Assembly: GCF_014203355.1 (NCBI RefSeq)
Contig: NZ_JACHIR010000001.1
Span: 2,234,038 to 2,298,037, forward strand
Source of the DNA: Kutzneria kofuensis
GTDB taxonomy: Bacteria > Actinomycetota > Actinomycetes > Mycobacteriales > Pseudonocardiaceae
Direction of reading: 5' to 3'
DNA length: 64,000 nt
Shown here piece by piece: positions 6,463 through 49,044 of this stretch. How positions within the stretch are numbered: the stretch's first letter is position 1; each line of letters starts with the position of its first letter. The notes under the pieces are model-generated. The model ran no database searches. It was not told the origin of the DNA and saw only the letters and a list, made by a program, of their open reading frames with translations. Both the position numbers and the translations under genes were made by a program.

Positions 6463-7143
6463 ATGTCCACCGAGTCACCCCCACGCCGTCGGCGCGCTCC
6501 TGCGATGAGCACGGAGGACCGGCAGGAGGCCATCGCCGTTGCGGCGATTCCGCTGCTGGCCGAGCACGGCACGCACGTCACCACAGGGCAGATCGCCAAG
6601 GCGGCGGGGATCGCGGAGGGCACGATCTTCCGTGTCTTCAAGGACAAGCAGGAGCTGCTCGACTTCTGCGTCCTGAGGGCGTTTCGGACGCGGGAGCTTG
6701 TCGAGCGGATCAACGCCATCCCGGTGGACAAGCCGCTGGTGAATCGGTTGATCGAGGCAATGACGATGATCGACGAGATGGCGGCCCGGCTGGGAGCTCT
6801 GATGCACACGCTGGGTGCCACCGGCTACCGGCCGAACGAAGGCAACCACAACAAGGACGACGAGGCGGGCGGACACAGAAAGCCGCCGATGCTGGATGAG
6901 TTCGAGCGAACGACGACGGCGATCGCGGCGCTGTTGTCGTCGGGCCAGGAGCAACTGCGACTGCCGTCCGACCGGGCTGCGGGCTATCTGATGGGCCTCA
7001 CCTTCATGACGAGGATGCAGGCGACTCGGACGGCGCAGGTCGAACAGAAGGAGCCGGAGTCGTTCGTGTCGGAGATCGTCGATCTCTTCATGAACGGCGC
7101 CGTCGCCGCCGAGATGGAGCGAGGGGGGAAGGACCCGCAATGA
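6463..7143 (+). CDS. TetR-family regulator of the adjacent ABC exporter
   Basis: A 226-residue TetR-type repressor. The helix-turn-helix lies at about residues 25-65 (AIPLLAEHGTHVTTGQIAKA, GIAEGTIFRVFKDKQELL). The C-terminal ligand domain is helical and has no family-specific motif I recognise. The gene overlaps the exporter ATPase start by four bases (ATGA), so regulator and transporter form one transcript. Two inverted repeats in its own promoter point to autoregulation. By analogy with other TetR-DrrAB cassettes, it probably releases DNA when a toxic or self-made compound binds. Confidence 0.88.
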   Translation: MSTESPPRRRRAPAMSTEDRQEAIAVAAIPLLAEHGTHVTTGQIAKAAGIAEGTIFRVFKDKQELLDFCVLRAFRTRELVERINAIPVDKPLVNRLIEAMTMIDEMAARLGALMHTLGATGYRPNEGNHNKDDEAGGHRKPPMLDEFERTTTAIAALLSSGQEQLRLPSDRAAGYLMGLTFMTRMQATRTAQVEQKEPESFVSEIVDLFMNGAVAAEMERGGKDPQ

Positions 7144-8081
7144 CCGAAGTGATGATCGAAGCAAGAAACGTGAGCAAAGCGTTCGGCAGCGTGAAGGCAC
7201 TGGACGACGTGAGCATCTCGGTGCCGCGGGGGACGGTGCTCGGGCTGCTGGGCCACAACGGGGCCGGCAAGACGACGTTGGTGAACGTGTTGACGACACT
7301 GCTCAAGCCGACCTCGGGGTCTGCGTCGGTGGCGGGCCTGGATGTGGTGAGCCAGGGCGACCAGGTGCGCGGGCGAATCGGCTTGACCGGGCAGTTTGCC
7401 TCGGTCGACGAGAACATGTCGGGCTTCGACAACCTTGTGCTGATCGCAAGGTTGTTGGGAGCGACCAAGAAGCAGGCATCGGCACGAGCGGGCGAGCTGT
7501 TGGAGACTTTCGATCTGACGGAGGCCAGAGACCGCTCGGCGAAGACGTACTCGGGCGGTATGCGGCGACGGTTGGATCTGGCGGCAAGTCTGGTGGGTCG
7601 GCCGGATGTCATCTTCCTGGACGAGCCGACGACGGGCCTGGACCCGATGAGTCGGATCGGGCTGTGGGAGATCGTCGAGAGCCTGGTCGGCGACGGGACG
7701 ACGGTTCTGTTGACGACGCAGTACCTGGAGGAGGCCGACCGGCTGGCCGACTCGATCACGGTGTTGTCGAAGGGAAAGGTGGTCGCGGCCGGCACGGCTG
7801 CGGAGCTGAAGGCCGGCGTCGGCAAGCGCACGGTGAGCGTGGTGCTGGCCGAGCCGGAGGATGCGGCGACGGCGTTGAACGCGTTGTCGAAGGCGGGGCT
7901 GCACCCGGTCCACGACAAGGTGCGGCACTCGGTCACGACGCCGGTGGAGAAATCGACCGACCTGGCGACCGTGGTGCGGGCACTCGACGAGGTCGGGGTC
8001 GAGGTGGGCGAGTTGGCGCTCACGGAGCCGACGCTCGACGACGTCTATCTGGCCGTCAACAGCGAAGCTCCGGCTGCCTGA
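7140..8081 (+). CDS. DrrA-like ABC exporter ATP-binding protein
   Basis: A 313-residue ABC ATPase with Walker A GHNGAGKTT (about residues 38-46), a Q-loop in RIGLTGQFASVDE, signature YSGGMRRRLDLA, Walker B VIFLDEPTTGLD and the switch His replaced within TTQYLEEAD. The C-terminal region of about 90 residues matches the daunorubicin-resistance (DrrA/CcmA) class. It should energise the membrane partner encoded 21 bases downstream. The substrate is not evident; family members export drugs, antibiotics or lipids. Confidence 0.92.
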   Translation: MTEVMIEARNVSKAFGSVKALDDVSISVPRGTVLGLLGHNGAGKTTLVNVLTTLLKPTSGSASVAGLDVVSQGDQVRGRIGLTGQFASVDENMSGFDNLVLIARLLGATKKQASARAGELLETFDLTEARDRSAKTYSGGMRRRLDLAASLVGRPDVIFLDEPTTGLDPMSRIGLWEIVESLVGDGTTVLLTTQYLEEADRLADSITVLSKGKVVAAGTAAELKAGVGKRTVSVVLAEPEDAATALNALSKAGLHPVHDKVRHSVTTPVEKSTDLATVVRALDEVGVEVGELALTEPTLDDVYLAVNSEAPAA

Positions 8082-8102
8082 GTCGGACGAGGGGGAAATT
8101 CC

Positions 8103-8954
8103 ATGACCACGACAGTTCAAGCCACGGCTCCGACGGACGAGGCGCCGCGGCGTGGCGACCTGGGCTGGCACGGCAGCAGCTTCGCCACGCAGGTCTGGGT
8201 GCTCACGCAGAGATCGCTCAACACGTACCTGCGCGACCCCCGGATGTTGTTCTTCAGCCTGCTGCAGCCGCTGGTGATGTTGTTGCTGTTCAGCCAGGTC
8301 TTCGGTGGCATCAGCCAGTTGGGCAGCCTGCACCAGTGGGGCTCCTACATCAACTACCTGCTGCCGTCGACGCTGGTGACGACGGCGATGACCTCGGCGA
8401 TGAGCTCTGGCGTCGGGTTGCTGACGGAGATGTCGAACGGGGTGATCGCACGGTTCCGGTCGATGCCCGTCAGTCTGTTCTCGGTCCTGCTGGCCCGGAG
8501 CCTCTCCGACACGGTGCGAATGGCGATCCAGTTGGTCGTCATGCTGATCGCCGCGGCGCTGCTGTTCGGCTTCACGCCGGCCGGCGGCATGATGGGCGTG
8601 ACGGCGGCGTTGCTGGTGTCGCTGATCGTCGGTTGGGGCCTGGGCTGGCTCTTCCTGGCGATCGCGACCTGGGTGAAGAAAGCCGAAACGATGCAGGCGG
8701 TCGCGTTCCTGGCGATGTTCCCGTTGATGTTCGGCTCGAGCGCGTACATGCCGGTGTCGACGATGCCGGGCTGGGTGCAGGTGATCGCCAACGTGAACCC
8801 GCTCAGCTACGCGATCTTCGCGTCCCGCGGTCTGGCGACGACGATCTGGGAAGCGAACCCGGCCTACACGCTGATCGCGTCGCTGGCGATCTCCGGCCTG
8901 ATCGCGTTGGTCGGCGGGGCCATCGCAACGCGCAACTTCCGTCGGACGAACTGA
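8103..8954 (+). CDS. DrrB-like ABC-2 exporter permease
   Basis: A 283-residue membrane protein with six predicted segments, including MLFFSLLQPLVMLLLFSQVF, LVVMLIAAALLFGF and ISGLIALVGGAIA near the C-terminus. This is the ABC-2 (DrrB) layout. The start ATG follows GAGGGGGAAA. It is the last gene of the tetR-ATPase-permease unit and is followed by a strong terminator. It forms the membrane channel for the ATPase encoded upstream. Confidence 0.9.
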   Translation: MTTTVQATAPTDEAPRRGDLGWHGSSFATQVWVLTQRSLNTYLRDPRMLFFSLLQPLVMLLLFSQVFGGISQLGSLHQWGSYINYLLPSTLVTTAMTSAMSSGVGLLTEMSNGVIARFRSMPVSLFSVLLARSLSDTVRMAIQLVVMLIAAALLFGFTPAGGMMGVTAALLVSLIVGWGLGWLFLAIATWVKKAETMQAVAFLAMFPLMFGSSAYMPVSTMPGWVQVIANVNPLSYAIFASRGLATTIWEANPAYTLIASLAISGLIALVGGAIATRNFRRTN

Positions 8955-12594: not shown

Positions 12595-13677
12595 GTGGAC
12601 ACCGAGCAAACCCGACGCCCGACGCTAGACACGGTGGCCCGTGCCGTCGGCGTCTCTCGGGCGACGGTGTCCAACGCCTACAACCGGCCCAACCAGCTCT
12701 CGGCCACCCTGCGCACGCGCATCCTGGAGGTCGCCGACCGGCTCGGCTACCTCGGGCCGGACCCGGTCGCCCGCAGCCTGGCAACACGGAAGTCGGCCGC
12801 GGTCGCCTTCATGCTGCGATCCGGCCTGTCCAGCGCGTTCTCCGATCCGGCGCTGACGATCATGCTCGATGCCCTGGCCGCCACGGTCGACGGCCGCGAC
12901 CACGCGTTGGTGCTGCTGCCCGGCGACGAGTCGGGCGGACCGCGCCCGGACAGCGTCGCCCGCGCCCAAGCGGACGTGATCGTCGCGTACTCGCTGCCGG
13001 ACAGCGCGCCGGCGCTGACCGCGGTACGCCAGCGCCGGCTGCCGATGGTGGTCGTGGACCAACCGGCCATGGGCGGCACGGCGCGCGTCGAACTCGACGA
13101 TTTCGGCGGAACCCAGGCGGCCGGTCGCTATCTGACCGAGCTCGGGCACCGCGACTTCGGCGTGATCTCGCTCACCCTTCGGCCAGACGGGCGGTCGGGC
13201 CCGGCCGAGCCGGAGCGCCGCACGGGGTCACCGTTCCGCGTGACACGCGAACGCATGAGCGGCTACTTCGACGCGTTGACGGCTGTCGGGATCGCCCCCG
13301 AGACGGTGCCGGTCTGGGAGTCCGCGAGCAGCGATCGCGAGCACGGCCGGACTGCCGCCCGATGGTTGTTACAGCAGAGCCCACGGCCGACGGCCCTGCT
13401 CTGCATGTCCGACGAGCTGGCGCTGGGCGCCCTCCAGGCTGCCCGCGATGCTGGGCTTTCGGTGCCGGCTGACGTCTCGGTCGTCGGATTCGACGACACA
13501 CCGCCCGCCGGCGTCGCGGACCCGCCGCTGACCACCGTCCGTCAGCCGCTGGTCGAGAAGGGTCGGCTCGCCGGCGAGCTGGCGCTGACCCTGCTGGACG
13601 GCGGGAGACCGAGCAGACCCGTCAGACTCGATGTCGAACTGGTGGTGCGCGCATCAAGCGCCGCCCCGATCCGGTGA
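12595..13677 (+). CDS. LacI-family transcriptional regulator
   Basis: A 360-residue regulator starting at GTG 12595 (VDTEQTRRPTLDTVARAVGV). The HTH is TLDTVARAVGVSRATVSNAY and the hinge follows in ILEVADRLGYLGPDPVARSL. The remainder is the periplasmic-binding-protein-like effector domain (for example LSVPADVSVVGFDDTPPAG and LTTVRQPL). It is divergent from the MFS transporter gene, with a 28-bp palindrome in between. Repression of both genes, relieved by a sugar-like ligand, is the expected mode. Confidence 0.92.
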   Translation: MDTEQTRRPTLDTVARAVGVSRATVSNAYNRPNQLSATLRTRILEVADRLGYLGPDPVARSLATRKSAAVAFMLRSGLSSAFSDPALTIMLDALAATVDGRDHALVLLPGDESGGPRPDSVARAQADVIVAYSLPDSAPALTAVRQRRLPMVVVDQPAMGGTARVELDDFGGTQAAGRYLTELGHRDFGVISLTLRPDGRSGPAEPERRTGSPFRVTRERMSGYFDALTAVGIAPETVPVWESASSDREHGRTAARWLLQQSPRPTALLCMSDELALGALQAARDAGLSVPADVSVVGFDDTPPAGVADPPLTTVRQPLVEKGRLAGELALTLLDGGRPSRPVRLDVELVVRASSAAPIR

Positions 13678-13824: not shown

Positions 13825-13897
13825 GCCTCCGTAGCTCAGCGGACAGAGCGAGTGACTTCTAATCACTTGGTCGCAGGTTCGAGTCCTGCCGGGGGCG
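13825..13897 (+). tRNA. tRNA-Arg (anticodon UCU)
   Basis: A complete 73-base cloverleaf. The acceptor arm GCCTCCG pairs with CGGGGGC (one G-U pair) before discriminator G. The D-stem is GCTC/GAGC, the anticodon stem AGTGA/TCACT with loop CTTCTAA (anticodon TCT), and the T-arm GCAGG-TTCGAGT-CCTGC. CCA is not encoded. It decodes AGA, a rare codon in this GC-rich genome. A TTTTT run follows directly. Confidence 0.97.
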
Positions 13898-13921
13898 CCC
13901 TTTTTCACCTGCGGGCACAAC

Positions 13922-14511: not shown

Positions 14512-14604
14512 GGGCTCGCCGGACAGGAGGAGGGCAGCGGCGTCGCCGGCGAAGAAGTCGCGGATCCAGGTCAGTTCGCGGGTCCGGCCGACCAGTGTCT
14601 CCAT
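14512..14604 (-). pseudogene. N-terminal remnant of an ATPase-LuxR-type regulator
   Basis: From an ATG at 14602-14604 with GGGGGAG upstream, 31 codons read METLVGRTRELTWIRDFF and then AAALLLSGEP. This is the standard opening of LAL/AAA-type LuxR regulators, which continue with GxGKT. Here the match stops abruptly at GEP and the frame continues into unrelated sequence. I read it as the 5' stump of a lost regulator gene. The rest of 13950-14837 shows no intact gene. Confidence 0.6.
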
Positions 14605-14837
14605 CGATCTCCCCCTTCGGCGGCGCACCGGCAGTTCGACGACATCCTCATCTTCGGCGAAATCGAGAAGTTCGACGAAAAGCTCGATGTCGACGGCGGA
14701 GCGGTGCGGCGGCTGCTGGGACGGCAACGTAGCAACGCCGCATATACGACCCGTAGACGAGACGTAGCCGTCCACATTCGGGTGCCCCATCGGACAGTGG
14801 GGTTGCCCCACGATCCCCGCTGGCCGACCCTGGTGCG

Positions 14838-16130
14838 GTGACCAGCACGCCCGGCATCGGCCGGATCGCCGTCGGCAGCTTCGTCGGCACCGCGATCGAG
14901 TTCTACGACTTCTACATCTACGGCACGGCAACGGCGCTGGTGCTCAACGCGACGTTCTTCCCGACGCTGGCGCCGGTGAACGCGACGCTCGCGTCGTTCG
15001 CCACGTTCGCCGTCGCCTTCATCGGCCGGCCGCTCGGCTCGCTGCTGTTCGGCCATTTCGGCGACCGCGTCGGGCGCAAGGCGACCCTGGTGGCATCGCT
15101 GCTGACCATGGGCCTGTCCACTGTGGCCATCGGCCTGCTGCCCGGTTACGCCACGCTCGGGGTCGCCGCACCCGTCATCTTGGTGCTGCTGCGGTTCCTG
15201 CAGGGCATCGGCCTCGGCGGCGAGTGGGGCGGGGCCGCGCTGCTCGCGGTGGAGAACGCGCCCGCCGGGCGACGGTCCTGGTACGCGACCTTCCCTCAGC
15301 TCGGGCCGTCGATCGGCTTCTTCGCCGCGAACGGGCTGTTCCTCGGCCTGTCGGCGGTGCTGTCGGACGAGTCGTTCCACTCGTGGGGCTGGCGGATCCC
15401 GTTCCTGGCGTCGGCCGTGCTGGTCGCCGTCGGTCTGGTGGTGCGCCTGCGGCTGGCCGAGACGCCGGTGTTCGCCGAGGTGGTGCGTCGGCGCGAGCAG
15501 AGCCGGATGCCGCTGGTCGACATGCTGCGCAAGGCGCCGCTGCGGCTGCTACTCGGCGGCGGCACGATCATCACCTGTTACGTCGTCTTCTACGTCACCA
15601 CCACGTTCTGCCTGTCCTACACGACGACCACGCTGAAGCTGCCCAAGTCGGAGGCGCTGGGCCTGCTGGTGGCGGCGATCTGGGCGATGGCGCTGACCAC
15701 GGTGCTGTCCTGTCTCGCCGGCGACCGCTACGGCCGCAAACCGGTGCTGCTGATTGGCTGCGTCTTCACGGGCGTGGCCGGATTGGTCATGTTTCCGCTG
15801 CTCAGCGGCGGTACCGCGCTGTCGATCGGCATCGCTTTCGCGCTCGGCCTTGCCGCGATGGGGTGGGTGTACGGGCCGCTCGGCGCGTTCCTGCCGGAGC
15901 TGTTCGACGCCCGCTACCGGTACTCGGCGTCGTCGTTCGCGTACAACCTGGGCGGCGTGCTCGGCGGCGCCCTCGCCCCGACCATCGCGGCGGCGCTGGC
16001 GGCGGGCGCCGGCACGACCGCGGTCGGCTGGTACGTCACCGGCTCGGCCGTGGTGAGCCTGCTGTGCCTGCTCGGGCTCCCGGAGACCCGGCACGTGTCC
16101 ACCGAACTGCCCGCCCGCGTCACAGCCTGA
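14838..16130 (+). CDS. MHS-family MFS transporter (metabolite:H+ symporter)
   Basis: A 430-residue protein starting at GTG 14838, with 12 membrane segments and the metabolite:H+ symporter signatures AIEFYDFYIYG, GHFGDRVGRK, LLRFLQGIGLGGEWGGAALL and GDRYGRKPVL. Family members (ShiA, ProP, KgtP, CitA) bring organic acids, betaines or similar solutes into the cell with protons. It is followed 11 bases later by a ketol-acid reductoisomerase gene on the same transcript. That suggests a substrate such as a branched keto- or hydroxy-acid, which is an inference. Confidence 0.88.
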   Translation: MTSTPGIGRIAVGSFVGTAIEFYDFYIYGTATALVLNATFFPTLAPVNATLASFATFAVAFIGRPLGSLLFGHFGDRVGRKATLVASLLTMGLSTVAIGLLPGYATLGVAAPVILVLLRFLQGIGLGGEWGGAALLAVENAPAGRRSWYATFPQLGPSIGFFAANGLFLGLSAVLSDESFHSWGWRIPFLASAVLVAVGLVVRLRLAETPVFAEVVRRREQSRMPLVDMLRKAPLRLLLGGGTIITCYVVFYVTTTFCLSYTTTTLKLPKSEALGLLVAAIWAMALTTVLSCLAGDRYGRKPVLLIGCVFTGVAGLVMFPLLSGGTALSIGIAFALGLAAMGWVYGPLGAFLPELFDARYRYSASSFAYNLGGVLGGALAPTIAAALAAGAGTTAVGWYVTGSAVVSLLCLLGLPETRHVSTELPARVTA

Positions 16131-16141
16131 GGAGAAACCCC

Positions 16142-17611
16142 ATGGACCTCGACTTCGACACGAAGGTGTTCGACAAGGAGTACATCGCCGTCGCGGACCG
16201 GCAGGAGCCGATCGTGCGCGGCGGACGCCACCTGTTCGACCGGTTACCCGCGGCCTTCGACGGCGTGCGCCAGCTGGGCGTGATCGGCTGGGGCCCGCAG
16301 GGCTCGGCGCAGGCGCAGAACCTGCGGGACTCGCTGGGCGACGCGGTGCGCGTGGTCGTCGGCCTGCGGCGGAACTCGACGTCCTGGGACACCGCCGTGC
16401 AGGCGGGCTTCACGCCGGAGGACGGCACGCTCGGCGAGATGTTCGACGTCATCCGCGGCTCGGACATGGTGATCCTGCTGATCTCGGACGGTGCGATGGC
16501 CGAGACCTATAGGGAGGTGTTCGCGGCGCTGCGGCCGGGCACCACGCTCGGGTTGTCGCACGGCTTCCTGCTCGGCCACCTGGATCTGGTCGGCGACGAG
16601 TTCCCCGCCGACATCGACGTGATCGCCGTCTGCCCGAAGGGTATGGGTGCCTCAGTTCGCGCCCTCTACCTGCAGGGCAGGGACGTCAACGGCGCCGGCA
16701 TCAACGCGAGCTTCGCCGTGCACCAGGACGTCACCGGCCGGGCGGTCGACCGGGCGCTCGGCTGGTCTGTGGGCCTCGGCGCGCCGTACACGTTCCGGAC
16801 CACGCTGCGGTCCGAGTACCTCTCGGATCTGTCGGGCGAGCGCGGCATCCTGGCCGGCGGCCTGCACGGCATCGTGGAGAGCCTCTACCGGCGGTTCCGC
16901 GACCAGGGCATGAGCGACGAGGACGCGTTCCGGCACTCCGCCGAGTCGGTCACCGGCCCGATCTCGCGGGTGATCTCCCGCGACGGCATGCTCGGCGTCT
17001 ACCGAATGCTGAATTCCGACGAAAAGCAGGTGTTCGCCGAGGCGTACTCGGTCAGCTACCCGGTCGGCCTGGAGCTGATGCACGAGATCTACGACGAAGT
17101 CCGCTCCGGCGACGAAGTGCGCAGCGTGGTGCTGGCGGGCAAGCGGCTGGCCCGGTTCCCGATGGGCAAGATCGACCAGGCCGACATGTGGCGGGTCGGT
17201 CAGAAGGTGCGGGCCGACCGGGTGCCCGACGAGATTCCGCTCGACCCGTTCACCGCCGGCGTGTTCATCGGCGTGATGATGGCGCAGATCGACGCACTGC
17301 TGGAGTTCGGCCACCCGTACTCGGAGATCGCGAACGAGTCGGTCATCGAGGCGGTCGACTCGCTCAACCCGTACATGCACGCCCGCGGCATCGCCTACCT
17401 GGTGGACAACTGCTCGATCACGGCCCGGCTCGGCGCGCGCAAGTGGGCGCCGCGGTTCGATTACGCGCTGACGCAGCGCGCCTACCCGGTCGTCGACGAC
17501 GAGCAATCCGTCGACATCGAGATTTTCGGCGGATTCGAGAATCACGTCGTGCACGAGGTGCTGCGAGTGTGCGCCGGCATGCGGCCGTCCGTCGACATCT
17601 TCGTCGAGTAG
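16142..17611 (+). CDS. ilvC: Class II ketol-acid reductoisomerase, plant-like
   Basis: A 489-residue enzyme starting at the ATG after GAGGAGAAACCCC. It should convert acetolactate or acetohydroxybutyrate to dihydroxy-acids with NADPH and Mg2+ (valine/isoleucine pathway). The Rossmann site is GVIGWGPQGSAQAQNLRDSL. Metal and substrate residues are visible in CPKGMG, SDLSGERG, YSEIANESVIEAVDSL and CSITARLGARKW. Two C-terminal helical domains give the long class II size; most Actinobacteria use a class I enzyme of about 340 residues. From memory the sequence follows plant chloroplast KARI nearly block by block, for example NGAGINASFAVHQDV and ALGWSVGLGAPYTF. It is coupled to an MHS transporter, not to other ilv genes. 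It is therefore probably a second, specialised or inhibitor-tolerant KARI. Confidence 0.92.
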   Translation: MDLDFDTKVFDKEYIAVADRQEPIVRGGRHLFDRLPAAFDGVRQLGVIGWGPQGSAQAQNLRDSLGDAVRVVVGLRRNSTSWDTAVQAGFTPEDGTLGEMFDVIRGSDMVILLISDGAMAETYREVFAALRPGTTLGLSHGFLLGHLDLVGDEFPADIDVIAVCPKGMGASVRALYLQGRDVNGAGINASFAVHQDVTGRAVDRALGWSVGLGAPYTFRTTLRSEYLSDLSGERGILAGGLHGIVESLYRRFRDQGMSDEDAFRHSAESVTGPISRVISRDGMLGVYRMLNSDEKQVFAEAYSVSYPVGLELMHEIYDEVRSGDEVRSVVLAGKRLARFPMGKIDQADMWRVGQKVRADRVPDEIPLDPFTAGVFIGVMMAQIDALLEFGHPYSEIANESVIEAVDSLNPYMHARGIAYLVDNCSITARLGARKWAPRFDYALTQRAYPVVDDEQSVDIEIFGGFENHVVHEVLRVCAGMRPSVDIFVE

Positions 17612-17838
17612 TCGCCGAACACACGGCGCAGGCGGTGGATATAGGTGCGCACCGTCGCGGCCGCTGACGACGGGGCGTCAACGCCCCACAGCGCATGGGC
17701 GCTGCCCTCCGGCGTCAGCGGCTTCCCGTCGCTGAGCAGCAGCATCGCCCGCACCGTGCGCTGCTGTGGCGGCCCCAGCTGAAGTTCCTGCCCGTCCCGC
17801 CAACTGCGGACGGGACCAAGCAGCTTGAAGTCCAGCAC
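17542..17838 (-). pseudogene. Truncated SARP (AfsR-type) regulator
   Basis: From GTG 17836-17838 the minus strand encodes LDFKLLGPVRSWRDG, LQLGPPQQRTVRAMLLL and ATVRTYIHRLRRVFGD. These are the winged-helix trans_reg_C core of SARP activators. After about 76 residues the reading frame runs into the antisense of the KARI 3' end and stops. The bacterial transcriptional activation domain (BTAD) is absent. It is a remnant or a DNA-binding-only fragment. The break coincides with the KARI stop codon, which suggests that the arrival of the KARI block removed the rest. Confidence 0.7.
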
Positions 17839-17842
17839 AGCG

Positions 17843-19054
17843 TCACCGCAGCCGCGCGTGGCTGGAGCGTAGGTCGGCGACGGCACGCACGCCGAGCAGT
17901 TGCATCGTCCGCACGATCTCCTTGCGAAGGATGTCGACGGTGCGCTGCACGCCGCGCTCGCCGCCGGCCATCAGTCCGTACAGGTAAGCGCGGCCGATCA
18001 GGCACAGGTCGGCGCCCATCGCCCGGGCAGCCACGATGTCCGCGCCGGAAAGGATGCCGGTGTCCAGCCACACCTCGGCGTCGTCCTTCACCTGGTCGAC
18101 GACCTGCGGCAACAGCTCCAGCGGCGTCGGTGCGCGGTCGAGCTGACGGCCGCCGTGGTTGGACAGCAGCACGGCGTCGGCGCCGTGCTTGACGACGTCG
18201 CGGGCGTCGTCGACGTTCTGGATGCCCTTCACCACGAGCTTGCCGGGCCAGATCTCGCGTACCCAGTCGAGGTCGTCGAAGTTCAGCGTCGGGTCGAACA
18301 TGGAGTTGATGAGCTCCTCGACCGCGCCGCCCCACTCGGTGAGCGAGGCGAACGTCAGCGGCTCGGTCGTGAGCAGGTTGAACCACCACGCCGGGTGCGT
18401 CGCACCGTCCAGAAAGGTGCGCAGCGTCAGCGCGGGCGGGATCGTCAGACCGTTGCGCACGTCGCGCATCCGCGCGCCGCCGACGGGTGTGTCGACGGTG
18501 AGCATCACGGTGTCGTAGCCGGCGGCGTGCGCGCGCTGCAGCAGCTCACGGCCCGCACCCTTGTCGCGCCACACGTACAGCTGGAACCACTTGCGCGCGT
18601 CGGGGGCGACCGCCGCGACGTCCTCGATGGAGGTGGTGCCCATCGTGGACAGTGCGTACGGAATGCCCACGCGCTGCGCGACCTTGGCGACCGCCCGCTC
18701 CCCCTCGTGGTGCATCATCCGCGTGAACCCCGTGGGCGCGAACGCGAACGGCAGTGCGCTGCGCTTGCCCAGCACGTCGACACTGGTGTCCGGGTCGGCG
18801 ACACCGCGCAGCACGTTCGGCCGGAACTCGACGCGACGGAACGCCGTGCGCGCACGGCGGAGACTGTCCTCCAACTCGGCGGCGCCGTCCGTGTAGTCGA
18901 ACACCGCTCGGGGTGTGCGCAGGCGGGCGATGGTGCGCAGGTCGGCGATCGTGTGTGCGGCGGCCAGCCGCCGCTCGGTCGGGTCCAGCACGAACGGCTT
19001 CGGCCGGAGCAACTGCGCCAGCTCGCTGGGACGCGGCAGACGGCGTTCGGTCAC
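17843..19054 (-). CDS. lldD: L-lactate dehydrogenase, FMN-dependent (LldD2 type)
   Basis: A 403-residue alpha-hydroxy-acid oxidase/dehydrogenase. Visible family features are RTPRAVFDYTDGAAE (substrate Tyr), FAPTGFTRMMH, KWFQLYVWRD, VMLTVDTPVGGARMRDVRNG, the FMN-contacting KGIQNVDDA, the catalytic His-Arg in LLSNHGGRQLDRAP, and IGRAYLYGLMAGGERGV. It resembles M. tuberculosis LldD2 along its whole length from memory. It should oxidise L-lactate to pyruvate at the membrane. The gene stands alone, with the SARP fragment just downstream. Confidence 0.9.
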   Translation of the reverse strand: MTERRLPRPSELAQLLRPKPFVLDPTERRLAAAHTIADLRTIARLRTPRAVFDYTDGAAELEDSLRRARTAFRRVEFRPNVLRGVADPDTSVDVLGKRSALPFAFAPTGFTRMMHHEGERAVAKVAQRVGIPYALSTMGTTSIEDVAAVAPDARKWFQLYVWRDKGAGRELLQRAHAAGYDTVMLTVDTPVGGARMRDVRNGLTIPPALTLRTFLDGATHPAWWFNLLTTEPLTFASLTEWGGAVEELINSMFDPTLNFDDLDWVREIWPGKLVVKGIQNVDDARDVVKHGADAVLLSNHGGRQLDRAPTPLELLPQVVDQVKDDAEVWLDTGILSGADIVAARAMGADLCLIGRAYLYGLMAGGERGVQRTVDILRKEIVRTMQLLGVRAVADLRSSHARLR

Positions 19055-19135: not shown

Positions 19136-20086
19136 GTGCCAGCAGTCATCACCTCACTCAAGGACGACCACCTCCAGCAGGTCAGGGCCCTCGCCAACCG
19201 CACGGGGCGGGCCGAGGCGGGCGGCTGTCTACTGGAGGGCGCCGCCCTCATCACCCAGGCGGTGGAGGCCGGCGCGACACTGCGGTTCGTGCTCGCGGCC
19301 GAGGGAGCCTCCGACCCGGTGACGTCGTTGCTGGCCACGACCGGGGTGCCGGTGTTGATGGCGAAGGAGTCGGTGCTCCGGCAGGCGGTGCGGCTGAACC
19401 GGGCAGTGTCCTGGCTGGCGGTCGCCGAGCTGGCTGCGGTCGCCGGCGACGACCTCCCGTACGGGGACTTCGCGGTCGTCCTGGACAACGTGCTCGACCC
19501 CGGCAATTTGGGCACGATCGTGCGAACGGCCGTCGGCCTCGGCGTCGCCGACATCGTCTGCACGGACCCGGAAACGGACCTGACGAGTCGTCGCGTGCTG
19601 GACGCGTCCCGCGCGGCGGTGCTGCGGGCCCGGCTCCGCCGCTACGACACACCGGTCGAGGCGGTGCGCGACCTGCGCGAGCGTGGCTTCGAGGTCGTCG
19701 CCACCTCGGGCCGCGCGAGCATGCTGCAGGGATCGGTGCCGCTGAGCGGGCGGCCCGTCGCCCTTGTCGTCGGCAACGAGACCGACGGCGTCGGCGAGGA
19801 GGTGCTGGAGCTGGCCGACCACGTGGTCCGGATCCCGATGTCGGGCGAGGTCGAGTCGCTCAACGTCGGCGTCGCGACCGGCATCAGCCTGTACGAGCTG
19901 CGCGCCCGCATGGCGCTGGCCTCGCTCGGCGCGACCATCACGGAGCTCACCGGGGTCGTTTCCGACCTGCGGGAATCGGGGTACGTGGGAGAGGATGTGG
20001 CGCTGACCGGTTTCAGCGAGGCGGAGCGGGAGCAGTTCAGCGACTTTCTCCGCCGCGTGCGAAAGAACCTCCGACGAGGCGAGTGA
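19136..20086 (+). CDS. TrmH/SpoU-family RNA 2'-O-methyltransferase
   Basis: A 316-residue protein starting at GTG 19136. Residues about 1-95 form the RNA substrate-binding domain. The SPOUT knot follows, with motif 1 LDNVLDPGNLGTIVRTA, motif 2 ALVVGNETDGVGEE and motif 3 RIPMSGEVESLNVGVATGI. An extension of roughly 55 residues beyond the knot ends in EREQFSDFLRRVRKNLRRGE. Related proteins methylate ribose in 23S rRNA or tRNA, some of them giving antibiotic resistance. The substrate here is not defined. It is followed three bases later by the mgtC-like gene. Confidence 0.88.
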   Translation: MPAVITSLKDDHLQQVRALANRTGRAEAGGCLLEGAALITQAVEAGATLRFVLAAEGASDPVTSLLATTGVPVLMAKESVLRQAVRLNRAVSWLAVAELAAVAGDDLPYGDFAVVLDNVLDPGNLGTIVRTAVGLGVADIVCTDPETDLTSRRVLDASRAAVLRARLRRYDTPVEAVRDLRERGFEVVATSGRASMLQGSVPLSGRPVALVVGNETDGVGEEVLELADHVVRIPMSGEVESLNVGVATGISLYELRARMALASLGATITELTGVVSDLRESGYVGEDVALTGFSEAEREQFSDFLRRVRKNLRRGE

Positions 20087-40994: not shown

Positions 40995-42173
40995 TCACCA
41001 GGTGACCGGCACGGCGACGATTCCGCCGCCCAACTGGTTGATGCGCAGCTTGAGCTCCTCGACGGGGACTGCGAGCCGCAGGGTGGGGATGCGGCGGAGC
41101 AGGGCGTCGAACACGATCTGGAGTTCGAGGCGGGCGAGGTTCGCGCCGATGCAGTAGCGGGAGCCGTGTCCGAAGGTGAGGTGCTGGTTGGGCGTACGCG
41201 CGATGTCGAAATGCACGGCATCGGCGAAAACGCGCTCGTCGTGGTTGGCGCCGCTGGAGGCGAGCAGCACCGCATCGCCGGCCGCGACCTTGGTGCCGGC
41301 GATGTCCATGTCCTCACGGGCGTAGCGGAGCAGGCCGCCACCGCCGGTCATGCTGCGGCGCAGGACTTCCTCGATGGCGGACGCGGCGAGCTTCTCGTCC
41401 TGGAGAAACGCCTCCCGCTGGCCGGGATTGGTCAGAAACAGCAGGGTGCCGATGTCGATCCGCACCATCGTGGTCTCGTGACCGGCGAAAAGCAGCCCGC
41501 TGCCCAGCAGCGCCAGTTCGTCGTCGCCGACCTGGTCGCCGTACTCGGCGACCAGGTCGCTGATCAGGTCGTCGCCGGGTTCGGTCCGCTTGCGGTGGAT
41601 GAGCCCCTTCATATACGCACCGAGGTTTTCCCACCCGGCGGCCGAGCGGGCGCCGTCGGCGGTGTCGCCGACCGCGTCGGACCAGGCCCGAAAGTCGTCG
41701 CGGTCCTCGTACGGCACGCCGAGCAGGGCGCAGATGACCAGCACCGGCAGCGGCACGGAGAGTCGCTCGTGCAGGTCGACGGGGCCGCCGTCGGCCAGCA
41801 AGCCGTCGATGATCGTGTCGACGATCTGCTGGATGTGCGGCCGCATCACTCGCATTCGCCGAGGTGAGAACGCCGGCATGAGCATCGCTCGCATCATGGC
41901 GTGGTTGGCGTCCTCGTTGTCGTCGGCTATCGCACCGCTCATGATCACGGAGTTCGTCACGCGGGCGGCCTGCTCGGGATTCGGATGCGAACGCCCGAGT
42001 CGGGGGTCGGCGAACAGGTCGCGGACCTCGTCGTAGCGGGTGACCAGCCACGCCTCGTCGCCCATCTGCGTGCGCACACGCACGATCGGCCCTTCGGCCT
42101 GGAGCTCCAGCAGCTGCGGCGGCGGTTCGAGCACGCCGGCGCGCGCGAACGGCAACTGCGGCAAGTCGGTCAT
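40995..42173 (-). CDS. Cytochrome P450 (bacterial class I, CYP105/107-like)
   Basis: A 392-residue soluble P450 starting at ATG 42171-42173 after GGGAGGGAATTCG. The I-helix is [13 protein letters not shown], with the E-x-x-R helix in IEEVLRRSM. The haem loop is [20 protein letters not shown], with the axial Cys. Length and motifs match actinobacterial oxidases of secondary or xenobiotic metabolism. No ferredoxin gene is adjacent. A TetR gene is divergent, and the palindrome between them suggests substrate-inducible control. Confidence 0.93.
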
Positions 42174-46258: not shown

Positions 46259-48292
46259 GTGAAGTGGCGAGCACTGGGGGTGACGCTGGCACTGGCCGCG
46301 TCGCTCGTGACGGTCACACAGCCCGCGATCGGCGCCACCGCGCCGATCGGCCGGGCGGCCGCATTCGTCGACGTCGTCGCGCACGAGGACGACGACATCC
46401 TGTTCATGAACCCCGACCTGGTCGGCGGCATCAGAGCCGGCGTGCCGGCCACGACGATCTTCCTGACGGCCGGCGAGAACGCCTTCAACGGCGCCCCCGG
46501 CAACGACCCGGACGATCCGTACTGTCCGCGGCTGCCCAACGACGGTGGCAATCACTTCGGCGAGCTCAGCCGTGAGCGGTACGCGCAGTGCCGCCAGCAG
46601 GCGGCCCGCGCGGCGTACGCGCAGATGGCCGGCGTGGCCGATGCTTGGGACGGCACCCTCGTGGACGTCTCCGGCGGCAACTTCGCCGAGCAGTACACAC
46701 TGCGCGCGAAGCCGTCGATCAAGCTGGTGTTCCTCGACCTGCCCGAGGACGGCGACTCGGAAATCGGCGGTTCGCTGTACCACCTGTATTTCGACGACGA
46801 GCCGGGCTTCGCCACGGACACACTGGTGCCGACGGACGGCGTGGTCCAGCGGAGTTACCGCTACGACCGGGCGGACACGATCAACGCCCTCACGTCGCTC
46901 TACCAGCGGTTCGCGCCGACCGCGGTCCGCGTGCAGGACACCGATCCGGACGCGCGGGAGCAGATCGGCGCCTGGATCTTCCACGACCACACCGACCACG
47001 TGATGGCCGCGCGGCTGGCCTCGGAGGCGCTCGGCGACTACACGCGGCAGACCGGGTACGACCGGATCTCGCTGGAGGAGTTCCGCGACTACAACATCGG
47101 CGGCGCGCCGGTGAACCTCGCGCCGGGCCAGCGGTCGGACAAGAACGCGACGTTCCAGGCGTACAAGCCGTTGGACCCGGCGGTGTGGGAGGTCGACTCG
47201 CAGAACTACACGGACTGGACCGCCCGGATGTACTACCGCTGGCCGACGGGGACCAGTTGGGTCGGGCATGACCAGGACGGGCGGCTGGAGGCGTTCGCCG
47301 TGCGTGGCGGCAATCTGCTCGACTGGTCACAGACCTCGACGGGCTCGTGGACCGGGCCGGTCGACCTGGGCAATCCGGGCGGTCCGCTGGAGCCGGGGGT
47401 CGCCGTCGCGAACGAGCGTGACGACCGGCTCGACGTCTTCGCCCGCCGCGCGGACACCGCCGAGATCGTCGAACTGGGGCAGACGGCGCCCAATGGGGCC
47501 TGGGCGGCGCGATGGTCGTCGCTGGGCAATCCGAACACCGGCGACCCGGACGCCGAGCAGCAGGTCGGCACGCCCGTCACCGCGAAGAACGGGGACGGCC
47601 GGATCGAGGTGTTCGTGCGCAACGGCGGAGGCGGCGTGAGCACGTCGTTCCAGCAGGGCAGCGGCGGTGCCTTCGGAGCCTGGGTCGACCTCGGCGGCAG
47701 CGGCATCCAGGAGGACCCGGCCGCGGTGACGACGGACAGCGGCCGGATCGAGCTGTTCGCGAGCACCAAGACCGAGGTGCTGCACTGGTACCAGCCGTCG
47801 CCGAACAGCTCGTTCACGGTGGACTCTTCCTTCCCGGCCGGCACGCCAGCAAGCGCACCGACGGCCGCGATCGACCAAGACGGCCGGTTGTCGGTCTTCT
47901 ACCGGCAAGCGGGTAGTGCGTCGGTCGAGGTGTCCGTGCAGGCGTCGCCGGACGGCGGGTGGAAGCCGTCGCCCGTGGTGCTCGGCGGGCAGGCCGGCGT
48001 CGGGCAGCCCGCGCTGGTCACCGCGCCGCCCAGTGTGGACGCCCGGGTGATGGTGTTCACCCGAAACGGGGGTGGCGGCGTGAGTTCGGCGCGGCAGACC
48101 TCGGCCAACGGCGGGTTCGGCGGCTGGTCCGATCTCGGCGGCCTGTTCGTCGGGCTGCCGACGGCGGCGGTGGACAACGCCGGTGTGGTGGTGCTGCTCG
48201 CCATGGGAGTTGGCGGTCAACTGGCCGTGAACAGGCAGACAGCCGCCGGCGGGGACGCCCCGTTCGGCGGCTGGCAGCTGGTCGGCAGTTAG
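46259..48292 (+). CDS. Secreted PIG-L deacetylase with lectin-like beta-propeller
   Basis: A 677-residue secreted protein starting at GTG 46259. Residues 1 to about 28 are a signal peptide (VKWRALGVTLALAASLVTVT, then ending near IGA). Residues about 35-270 are a PIG-L/LmbE domain: VVAHEDDDILFMNPDL is the AHPDD-type zinc site, and FHDHTDHVMAARL carries the H-x-x-H. From about residue 325 five or six blade-like repeats follow, each with a pattern such as DQDGRLEAFAVRGGNLLDW or GDGRIEVFVRNGGGGVSTSF. They resemble tachylectin/PLL propellers that bind fucosylated or methylated sugars. It probably removes N-acetyl groups from an extracellular glycan held by the lectin part. It stands alone between convergent and divergent neighbours. 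Confidence 0.87.
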   Translation: MKWRALGVTLALAASLVTVTQPAIGATAPIGRAAAFVDVVAHEDDDILFMNPDLVGGIRAGVPATTIFLTAGENAFNGAPGNDPDDPYCPRLPNDGGNHFGELSRERYAQCRQQAARAAYAQMAGVADAWDGTLVDVSGGNFAEQYTLRAKPSIKLVFLDLPEDGDSEIGGSLYHLYFDDEPGFATDTLVPTDGVVQRSYRYDRADTINALTSLYQRFAPTAVRVQDTDPDAREQIGAWIFHDHTDHVMAARLASEALGDYTRQTGYDRISLEEFRDYNIGGAPVNLAPGQRSDKNATFQAYKPLDPAVWEVDSQNYTDWTARMYYRWPTGTSWVGHDQDGRLEAFAVRGGNLLDWSQTSTGSWTGPVDLGNPGGPLEPGVAVANERDDRLDVFARRADTAEIVELGQTAPNGAWAARWSSLGNPNTGDPDAEQQVGTPVTAKNGDGRIEVFVRNGGGGVSTSFQQGSGGAFGAWVDLGGSGIQEDPAAVTTDSGRIELFASTKTEVLHWYQPSPNSSFTVDSSFPAGTPASAPTAAIDQDGRLSVFYRQAGSASVEVSVQASPDGGWKPSPVVLGGQAGVGQPALVTAPPSVDARVMVFTRNGGGGVSSARQTSANGGFGGWSDLGGLFVGLPTAAVDNAGVVVLLAMGVGGQLAVNRQTAAGGDAPFGGWQLVGS

Positions 48293-49044
48293 CGCAGGCC
48301 CGCGAGCAACTCCCGGACGGCCTGCAGGCTGGCCCGCCACACGCCGGTGGCCAGGCTGACTCGGGCGACGCCCATGGCGCCAAGTTCGCTGATGGGCGGA
48401 GAGGTCGGCTTCAGCATGATGTTCACGGGGAAGTCGACCTGGCGGACGAACTCGGCGATGAGCTCCGGGTCGGCCAGCGCGATCGGGTAGACGCAGTCGG
48501 CGCCGGCGTCGCGGTAGCGCTTGGCCCGCTCGACGCCGTCGGCGAACACCTCGGCGTGCTTGTCCGGGTCGCCGGCGCGGATGAACGCGTCCACCCGGGC
48601 GTTGATGACCACCGGCACGCCGGCGGCGTCGGCTGCCTTGCGGATCCGCGTGAGGCGTTCGGTCTGCCACGCCAGTTCGCGGACACCGCCCGCGGTGTGG
48701 TCGGTGTCCTCGATGTTGATGCCGACCGCACCGGCTTCGAGCAGGGCGGTGACCAGCTGTTCGGCGTCGAGGCCGTAGCCCGCCTCGATGTCGGCGGTCA
48801 CCGGCAGATCGACGGCGTTGGCGACCCGGCGGACGGCGGCGAACATCTCGTCGACCGGCGTCTTCTCCCCGTCCGGGAAGCCGAGGCTGTTGGCGACGGC
48901 GCTGCTCGACGTGGCGACGACCGGGAAGCCGGCCTCGGCGACCAGGCCGGCGGTCGCCGCGTCCCAGACATTCGGCAGCACCAGCGGGTTGCCCCGCTGG
49001 TGCAGGTCGCGCAGCGTCTTGGCGTGCGCGGCGAGCTGGCTCAC
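48289..49044 (-). CDS. Isocitrate lyase/PEP mutase superfamily enzyme
   Basis: A 251-residue TIM-barrel protein starting at GTG 49042-49044. Visible features are PLVLPNVWDAATAGLVAEAG, VTADIEAGYGLDAEQLV (the metal-binding D-x-E), GINIEDTDH and VVINARVDAF. The catalytic KKCGH loop of isocitrate lyase is absent, so it is closer to the oxaloacetate decarboxylase/PEP mutase branch. It overlaps the AhpD-like gene by four bases (GTGA) and overlaps the PIG-L gene end by four bases. The substrate is a 2-oxo or 2-methyl dicarboxylate by family analogy. Confidence 0.85.
   Translation of the reverse strand: MSQLAAHAKTLRDLHQRGNPLVLPNVWDAATAGLVAEAGFPVVATSSSAVANSLGFPDGEKTPVDEMFAAVRRVANAVDLPVTADIEAGYGLDAEQLVTALLEAGAVGINIEDTDHTAGGVRELAWQTERLTRIRKAADAAGVPVVINARVDAFIRAGDPDKHAEVFADGVERAKRYRDAGADCVYPIALADPELIAEFVRQVDFPVNIMLKPTSPPISELGAMGVARVSLATGVWRASLQAVRELLAGLR

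Follow-up and report, generated by a model that had tools for sequence, protein, structure and literature searches.

A predicted plant-type ketol-acid reductoisomerase in an optional islet of Kutzneria genomes, present besides an ordinary class I enzyme

What is the role of a ketol-acid reductoisomerase (KARI) that resembles the plant enzyme, and is encoded beside a transporter gene, in an actinomycete? The question is raised by a locus of Kutzneria kofuensis lying in a stretch of 64,000 nucleotides that was analyzed as a whole (hereafter, the window). The reading frame at 16142..17611 of the + strand contains no internal stop and encodes a product of 489 residues, in which the Pfam domains KARI_N (PF07991) and KARI_C (PF01450) both exceed their cut-offs. 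The best two matches among PDB chains, obtained with phmmer, are near full length and correspond to the KARIs of rice (3fr7, E=6.6e-193) and spinach (1qmg, E=4.7e-188); the third is a mitochondrial KARI (E=4.3e-54), and the E. coli enzyme (1yrl) is matched at E=1.6e-15. In the alignment, the window KARI is 58.9% identical to the rice enzyme (487 columns) and 58.6% identical to that of spinach (486 columns). The initial annotation, made from the sequence of the window, had described a class II KARI of this length and named four sequence blocks as closer to plant KARI than to E. coli IlvC. The gene, its domains, and the database matches confirm the former, and the residue counts agree with the latter: 10/13, 14/15, 17/18, and 9/11 residues of these blocks are identical to spinach vs. 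3/13, 5/15, 7/18, and 2/11 to E. coli. All NCBIfam equivalog models for ilvC score below their cut-offs on this protein (TIGR00465, 203.7 bits with a cut-off of 226.15; NF004017, 138.5 and 336; NF003557, 65.6 and 713). Given the full-length match and the grouping with plant KARI, apart from both class I and E. coli-type class II enzymes, the window KARI is, as judged from its sequence, a rare plant-type class II KARI, and it does not fall inside the ordinary bacterial class II.

The phylogenetic tree of 43 rows, which includes two plant sequences and four class I rows and in which E. coli forms a very long branch, places the window KARI in an actinobacterial clade of 25 rows (clade A, support 100/100). 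Five further rows make up clade B (100/100), a second actinobacterial clade of plant-type enzymes that are ~55-58% identical to the window KARI, and the plants form a separate third branch. Support is poor for the order in which clades A and B, plants, and the rows from Chloroflexota, the cyanobacterium, and Kaiserbacteria branch. When five more rows were added in a quick tree, L103-L106 joined clade B, and the plants formed a group with the cyanobacterium and three rows of Chloroflexota, whose SH-aLRT support of 91% is below the 95% mark. The trees leave out the degenerate L030, as well as L040 and L041; loci L002, L003, L031-L035, L036-L039, L068, L071, L083, L098-L102, and L107 were omitted as repeats, and the class I loci L001, L043, L045-L048, and L050-L060 were not used. 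The omitted L030 (7720-8178), from a Pseudonocardia MAG, combines a degenerate KARI fragment with kin of genes that neighbor KARI at loci L009 and L029. Thus, the plant likeness proposed in the initial annotation holds for the class of the sequence, but does not extend to closeness to plants as such. A recent transfer from a plant to a bacterium was rejected, as the window KARI is neither nested in the two plant sequences of the tree nor sister to plants only. By sequence, it is a member of the actinobacterial clade of a patchy bacterial plant-type family, represented also in Chloroflexota, one cyanobacterium, and Patescibacteria.

The type is also rare. Plant-type KARI is encoded in 2/394 genomes of Actinomycetes and in four of the seven Kutzneria genomes, the window's own being counted in both cases, and in 11/297 genomes of the window's family, two of these having C-terminal pieces only. 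With the centre genome counted, it occurs in 9/200 genomes of the family of Catenuloplanes (G014), 3/251 genomes of the phylum of a Dehalococcoidia genome (G018), 1/244 genomes of the phylum of the cyanobacterium (G019), and 2/145 genomes of the phylum of Kaiserbacteria (G021). Further copies reside on three linear Streptomyces plasmids. Carriage by viruses was considered and rejected: seven candidate stretches from viral contigs were examined and no relative is encoded in any of them, and the five phage records matched by the KARI query have coverage of at most 64% and identity below 60%. In the literature searched, which covered few subscription papers, neither plant-type KARI of bacteria nor a link of KARI to MEKHLA (see below) was the subject of any paper, and such bacterial relatives of plant KARI seem to have received little description so far.

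The window KARI is not the sole housekeeping enzyme of its genome, a candidate role that we rejected because the same genome contains class I ilvBNC. The class I gene (PF01450 match at G000:C1:5596111-5596542) belongs to an ilvB-ilvN-ilvC-serA-leuB run with ilvD nearby, each of these scoring above an NCBIfam cut-off; its product of 337 residues reaches 564.7 bits with NF004017 (cut-off 336). Hence, the initial view of the plant-type gene as a spare KARI, situated away from the ilv genes, proved right on both points. A similar situation is observed in other carriers. In a survey of 22 genomes with plant-type KARI, from which the genome of L023 was left out, a class I match above 200 bits is present in 19, namely all 18 actinomycetes and the cyanobacterium. 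The other three are MAGs (Dehalococcoidia, Chloroflexi, and Kaiserbacteria), which may be incomplete or may have the plant type as their sole KARI. Two side observations deserve mention. In some Pseudonocardiaceae, the usual class I enzyme is accompanied by another short KARI that differs from it (L042, L043, and L044 in G263, G175, and G142, respectively), and the Kribbella genome, in addition to L008 and a class I enzyme, has an extra match resembling plant-type KARI at G003:C22:6161-6568 (open frame 489).

Fifteen residues (spinach numbering) are conserved in the alignment not only in the window KARI, but also in 25/25 clade-A and 5/5 clade-B rows: Q136, R162, S165, S167, H226, P251, K252, D315, E319, L323, E492, E496, L501, C517, and S518. 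They include D315, E319, E492, E496, S518, H226, and K252, which we take to be the Mg ligands and catalytic residues of KARI, and R162, S165, and S167, presumably the NADPH residues. One difference concerns spinach Leu324, assumed here to be a residue of the substrate pocket, which is replaced by Ala in the window KARI. Among the clade-A rows, Ala occupies this position in 7/25 (four Kutzneria, Kribbella, Actinomadura, and Actinoallomurus) and Leu in 18/25. The replacement could mean another substrate. The same position is Cys in both E. coli IlvC and the class I IlvC of the window's genome, and thus Leu324 does not define KARI in general. Four loop positions close to the NADPH site (163, 164, 166, and 168) differ between the window KARI and spinach as well, and these are variable among the other rows too.

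The gene directly upstream, at 14838..16130 of the + strand, encodes a predicted MHS-type symporter of the MFS superfamily (matches to TIGR00883, Sugar_tr, and MFS_1), scoring 408.8 bits over the full TIGR00883 profile for metabolite/H+ symporters, slightly below the cut-off of 443.45. Its end is separated from the KARI ATG by 11 bases that include GGAG, and the two genes form a single unit. The initial annotation had regarded KARI as coupled to a transporter; this stands for the two-gene unit, but fails as a wider pairing. By tblastn, the window symporter was found at 3/25 clade-A loci, all from Kutzneria (the window, L006, and L062), and is absent beside KARI in K. buriramensis (L007) and at 21 clade-A loci outside Kutzneria. 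The transporter was therefore rejected as a general partner of KARI, and its absence from these loci indicates an add-on that is not essential to the role of the enzyme. MFS proteins are encoded near KARI also in L004, L005, L009, L029, and L063, and none of them has a blastp match to the window MHS protein at E 1e-3. Two of these genes, from two Streptomyces plasmids (L005 13644-14870 and L004 6729-8021), are 74% identical to each other and both upstream of KARI, the former at a distance of 130 bases and the latter at 7 kb; by blastp they are unrelated to the window symporter. The MHS gene itself suggests the transport of a small acid.

Comparison of Kutzneria genomes shows that KARI belongs to a genomic islet, bounded on its 5' side by tRNA-Arg (TCT; 13825..13899, +) and on its 3' side by the gene of an FMN-dependent alpha-hydroxy-acid dehydrogenase (17843..19054, -). 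In Kutzneria sp. 744 (L006) and in G079 (L062), the gene order is tRNA-Arg, a hydrolase-like gene, a LAL/LuxR-type gene, MHS, KARI, an AfsR/SARP-type gene, and FMN dehydrogenase. The LAL/LuxR-type gene is full-length in both (5749-8472 in L006, where its product has AAA_16 and GerE domains), and the AfsR/SARP-type gene is called at 910-927 aa in L006 (11475-14258), L007, and L062; the L006 protein scores 525 bits with NF053617, cut-off 1430. In the window both regulatory genes are mostly gone, and only their 5' ends are left. The LAL/LuxR-type remnant occupies 14512..14613 (-), window position 14512 aligning to L006 8371 and the end coordinate being approximated, and the AfsR/SARP-type remnant occupies 17608..17842 (-), position 17608 joining L006 14028. 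K. buriramensis (L007) has the LuxR, KARI, and SARP genes and no MHS gene. Finally, Kutzneria G148 (L082) has an empty site, adjoined by the same tRNA, with ~0.4 kb from the tRNA to FMN dehydrogenase and no called gene in between. No second copy of the last 24 bases of the tRNA, with up to 3 mismatches allowed, was detected in the window as a direct repeat. The FMN dehydrogenase was considered as a partner of KARI and set aside: it has a match in 7/7 Kutzneria genomes, with or without KARI, and thus is probably outside the KARI unit.

The islet is not a recent arrival. Between the window and three other Kutzneria, the omega values of KARI are 0.094-0.150 (three pairs), those of the MHS gene 0.116-0.122 (two pairs), and those of flanking genes 0.068-0.231. 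The dS values are 0.28-0.32 for KARI, 0.28-0.33 for the KARI/MHS pair, and 0.30-0.42 for the flanking genes. Low omega values, together with dS similar to that of the flanks, indicate that the pair has been inherited and is in use, so that the islet must be of some age within the genus and under selection. KARI is under purifying selection in Kutzneria. The similar dS of KARI and the flanks also favours loss of the islet in G148 over its original absence; the flank tree gives no clear placement of this genome.

Outside Kutzneria, clade-A neighborhoods share little and differ from genus to genus, and clustering revealed no partner enzyme common to them. One recurrent neighbor is a gene encoding MEKHLA (PF08670), a PAS-like domain known from plant HD-ZIP III proteins. 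It adjoins KARI in 13/25 clade-A loci (L015 11464-11949; also L016, L017, L019-L024, L004, L010, L011, and L072), with linkage in 8/10 Micromonosporaceae, where the gene is downstream, 5/6 Streptomycetaceae, where it is upstream, and 0/9 others. Of the eight linked copies in Micromonosporaceae, all of which are downstream, the six present among the gene calls share 4 bases with the KARI frame. L011, cut by a contig end, and L072, split into two frames, are near-identical. The domain is found in 12/394 Actinomycetes genomes at E <= 1e-20 (18 at E 1e-3) and in 12/20 searched clade-A genomes (13 with the partial G006), adjoining KARI in 10/20, G006 included; the carriers are related, so that these counts are not independent. 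In a quick tree of 24 MEKHLA rows, the linked/unlinked label has to change three times, and the linkage may have a single origin. The profile search detected no MEKHLA in the window's genome. AfsR/SARP-type genes near KARI were observed also in L019, L020, and L023.

Clade B demonstrates another arrangement. A divergent IlvY-type LysR gene accompanies KARI in 9/11 loci (L061, L063-L066, and L103-L106), with seven of the nine proteins above the NCBIfam cut-off of 246 bits and the other two at 229.9 (L063) and 244.9 bits (L066). The first 45 residues are missing from the KARI frame of L066. IlvY is absent from two loci, L040 and L041, which contain KARI remnants reduced to the C-terminal 137 residues, and a contig end does not explain the missing 5' part. 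IlvY activates ilvC in response to acetohydroxy acids, and thus its linkage to clade-B KARI supports an ordinary KARI substrate. The same model gave no match in the window or in L006. In the cyanobacterium Scytonematopsis (L026 8970-9884), a LysR gene divergent from plant-type KARI has the acetoin regulator AlsR as its nearest match (345 bits, with a cut-off of 430).

Several rival explanations of such a spare enzyme can be weighed against these data and the content of the window, where all 54 called proteins were scanned (Pfam was used for 30 of them; among the other 24, some were compared with NCBIfam only, at E 1e-20). One, related to the self-protection suggested in the initial annotation, for which no positive evidence emerged, is that the distant KARI sustains synthesis of branched-chain amino acids when a natural product blocks the class I enzyme, the symporter exporting or importing the agent. 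Its sporadic carriage (2/394 Actinomycetes) and location on three linear Streptomyces plasmids resemble those of resistance genes, the class I copy that would need replacing is present in all 18 searched actinomycete carriers, and regulators of the SARP and LAL types, common in antibiotic clusters, adjoin KARI in L006 and L062. A lone P450 encoded 23 kb away (40995-42173), adjoined by a methyltransferase gene, is nearest to pentalenolactone synthase, but at 453.2 bits with a cut-off of 700. However, the 54 called proteins, the largest of which is a glycine--tRNA ligase of 994 aa, include no synthase of a polyketide, peptide, or terpene, and the window thus gives no sign of a biosynthetic gene cluster of an inhibitor around KARI. 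A phosphonate cluster in the window was rejected as well, since a PEP-mutase-superfamily protein (48289-49044) scores 52.3 bits, with a cut-off of 319.55 for true PEP mutase. Furthermore, KARI neighborhoods vary between genera, and IpOHA and Hoe 704 act on the very plant enzymes to which the window KARI is similar. The literature searched offered no natural KARI inhibitor; phosphonothrixin was rejected as one because the title of its paper names a riboflavin enzyme as the target (PMC12268802). On balance, we regard inhibitor tolerance as unlikely. The window also encodes corrin methylases, cobalt transport genes, a DrrAB-type transporter, and DAHP synthase. At 6505-8954, a small regulator gene precedes the two DrrAB-type genes, of which the first encodes an ABC ATPase of DrrA type (342 bits with TIGR01188, cut-off 312) and the second a permease resembling DrrB (97.7 bits, cut-off 223). 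A SpoU-family RNA methyltransferase at 19136-20086, weakly similar to NshR/TsnR (81.6 bits, cut-off 425), adjoins an MgtC-family gene, and a LacI-like gene near 12600-13677, absent from the gene calls, was named by eye.

Another scenario, of which the branched-acid form was also raised in the initial annotation, is a dedicated route to a branched acid or specialized metabolite, in which KARI would reduce and rearrange a modified acetohydroxy acid and the symporter would handle that acid. The Ala at the position of spinach Leu324 in the Kutzneria, Kribbella, Actinomadura, and Actinoallomurus rows is compatible with this, as are the pathway-type regulators of L006 and L062 and the placement of KARI in its own unit, away from the ilv genes. 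Typical catalytic residues and the lack of a shared partner enzyme in the clustered clade-A neighborhoods argue against such a route, and it appears rather improbable. Least likely is a neutral passenger of a decaying islet, an enzyme still encoded with nothing selected. Decay is evident around the gene, both neighboring regulators being remnants in the window and the whole block being absent in G148, and other loci have preserved KARI as a fragment (the Pseudonocardia MAG L030) or a C-terminal piece (L040 and L041 of clade B); but the omega of 0.09-0.15 obtained when the window is compared with three other Kutzneria, which is similar to that of flanking genes (0.07-0.23), argues against neutrality.

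The explanation to which we assign an even chance is that the window gene encodes a catalytically competent accessory KARI, located in an optional islet under its own control. As predicted from sequence, the enzyme would convert 2-acetolactate and 2-aceto-2-hydroxybutyrate with NADPH into the dihydroxy acids used by IlvD, as IlvC does. It would be expressed from the islet and not within the ilvBNC operon, probably conditionally. The MHS-type proton symporter of the same unit probably moves a small hydroxy or keto acid of this or a neighboring pathway across the membrane, and the pair may form a conditional salvage or overflow route for acetohydroxy acids. Several findings count against this explanation: IlvY is absent from the window and MEKHLA from its genome, both regulatory genes next to KARI are remnants, Leu324 is replaced and the four loop positions differ, the symporter is missing beside most clade-A KARI genes, and one close Kutzneria, G148, does without the islet. 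A broader and decidedly tentative generalization, doubtful in our own estimate, is that bacterial plant-type KARI is the mark of an acetohydroxy-acid shunt that is controlled separately and whose control and transport partners are exchangeable, namely IlvY in clade B, MEKHLA in Micromonosporaceae and Streptomycetaceae, and MHS in Kutzneria. In this scheme, MEKHLA would serve KARI as a sensor or regulatory subunit, in the way that IlvN serves IlvB. The pairing of KARI with IlvY or MEKHLA suggests a function of bacterial MEKHLA proteins that can be tested. Both herbicides and antibacterials can be directed at KARI, and the plant-type and class I enzymes of one cell constitute a natural pair for comparing inhibitor sensitivity.

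Among known systems, the plant chloroplast KARI of rice (3fr7) and spinach (1qmg) is the most similar one, with a full-length match, 59% identity, and retention in the window KARI of the 15 residues contacting Mg, NADPH, or substrate. The differences are that the window gene is bacterial, begins at the mature part, and belongs to a separate clade (100/100), that its product has Ala for Leu324 and the four changed loop positions, and that the Kutzneria genome has a class I enzyme besides. E. coli-type class II IlvC shares the length of ~490 residues and the long C-terminal part, but is only 25.8% identical (445 columns) and stands outside the plant-type group on its very long branch. The class II KARI described in PMC8985424 is reported, in the accessible portion of that source, to be identical to a Morganella enzyme, and thus is taken to be of this E. 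coli type. The class I IlvC of actinomycetes, exemplified by the genome's own copy (L067), is of the same family and would be expected to catalyze the same reaction; it differs in its length of 337 aa, its ilvBNC locus, and its 26.7% identity (329 columns) to the window KARI. Finally, the ilvY-ilvC divergon of E. coli (L073) has a counterpart in clade B, where plant-type KARI is found with a divergent IlvY-type activator, whereas the window and L006 are without IlvY, and clade A has MHS (three Kutzneria loci), MEKHLA (13 loci), or neither.
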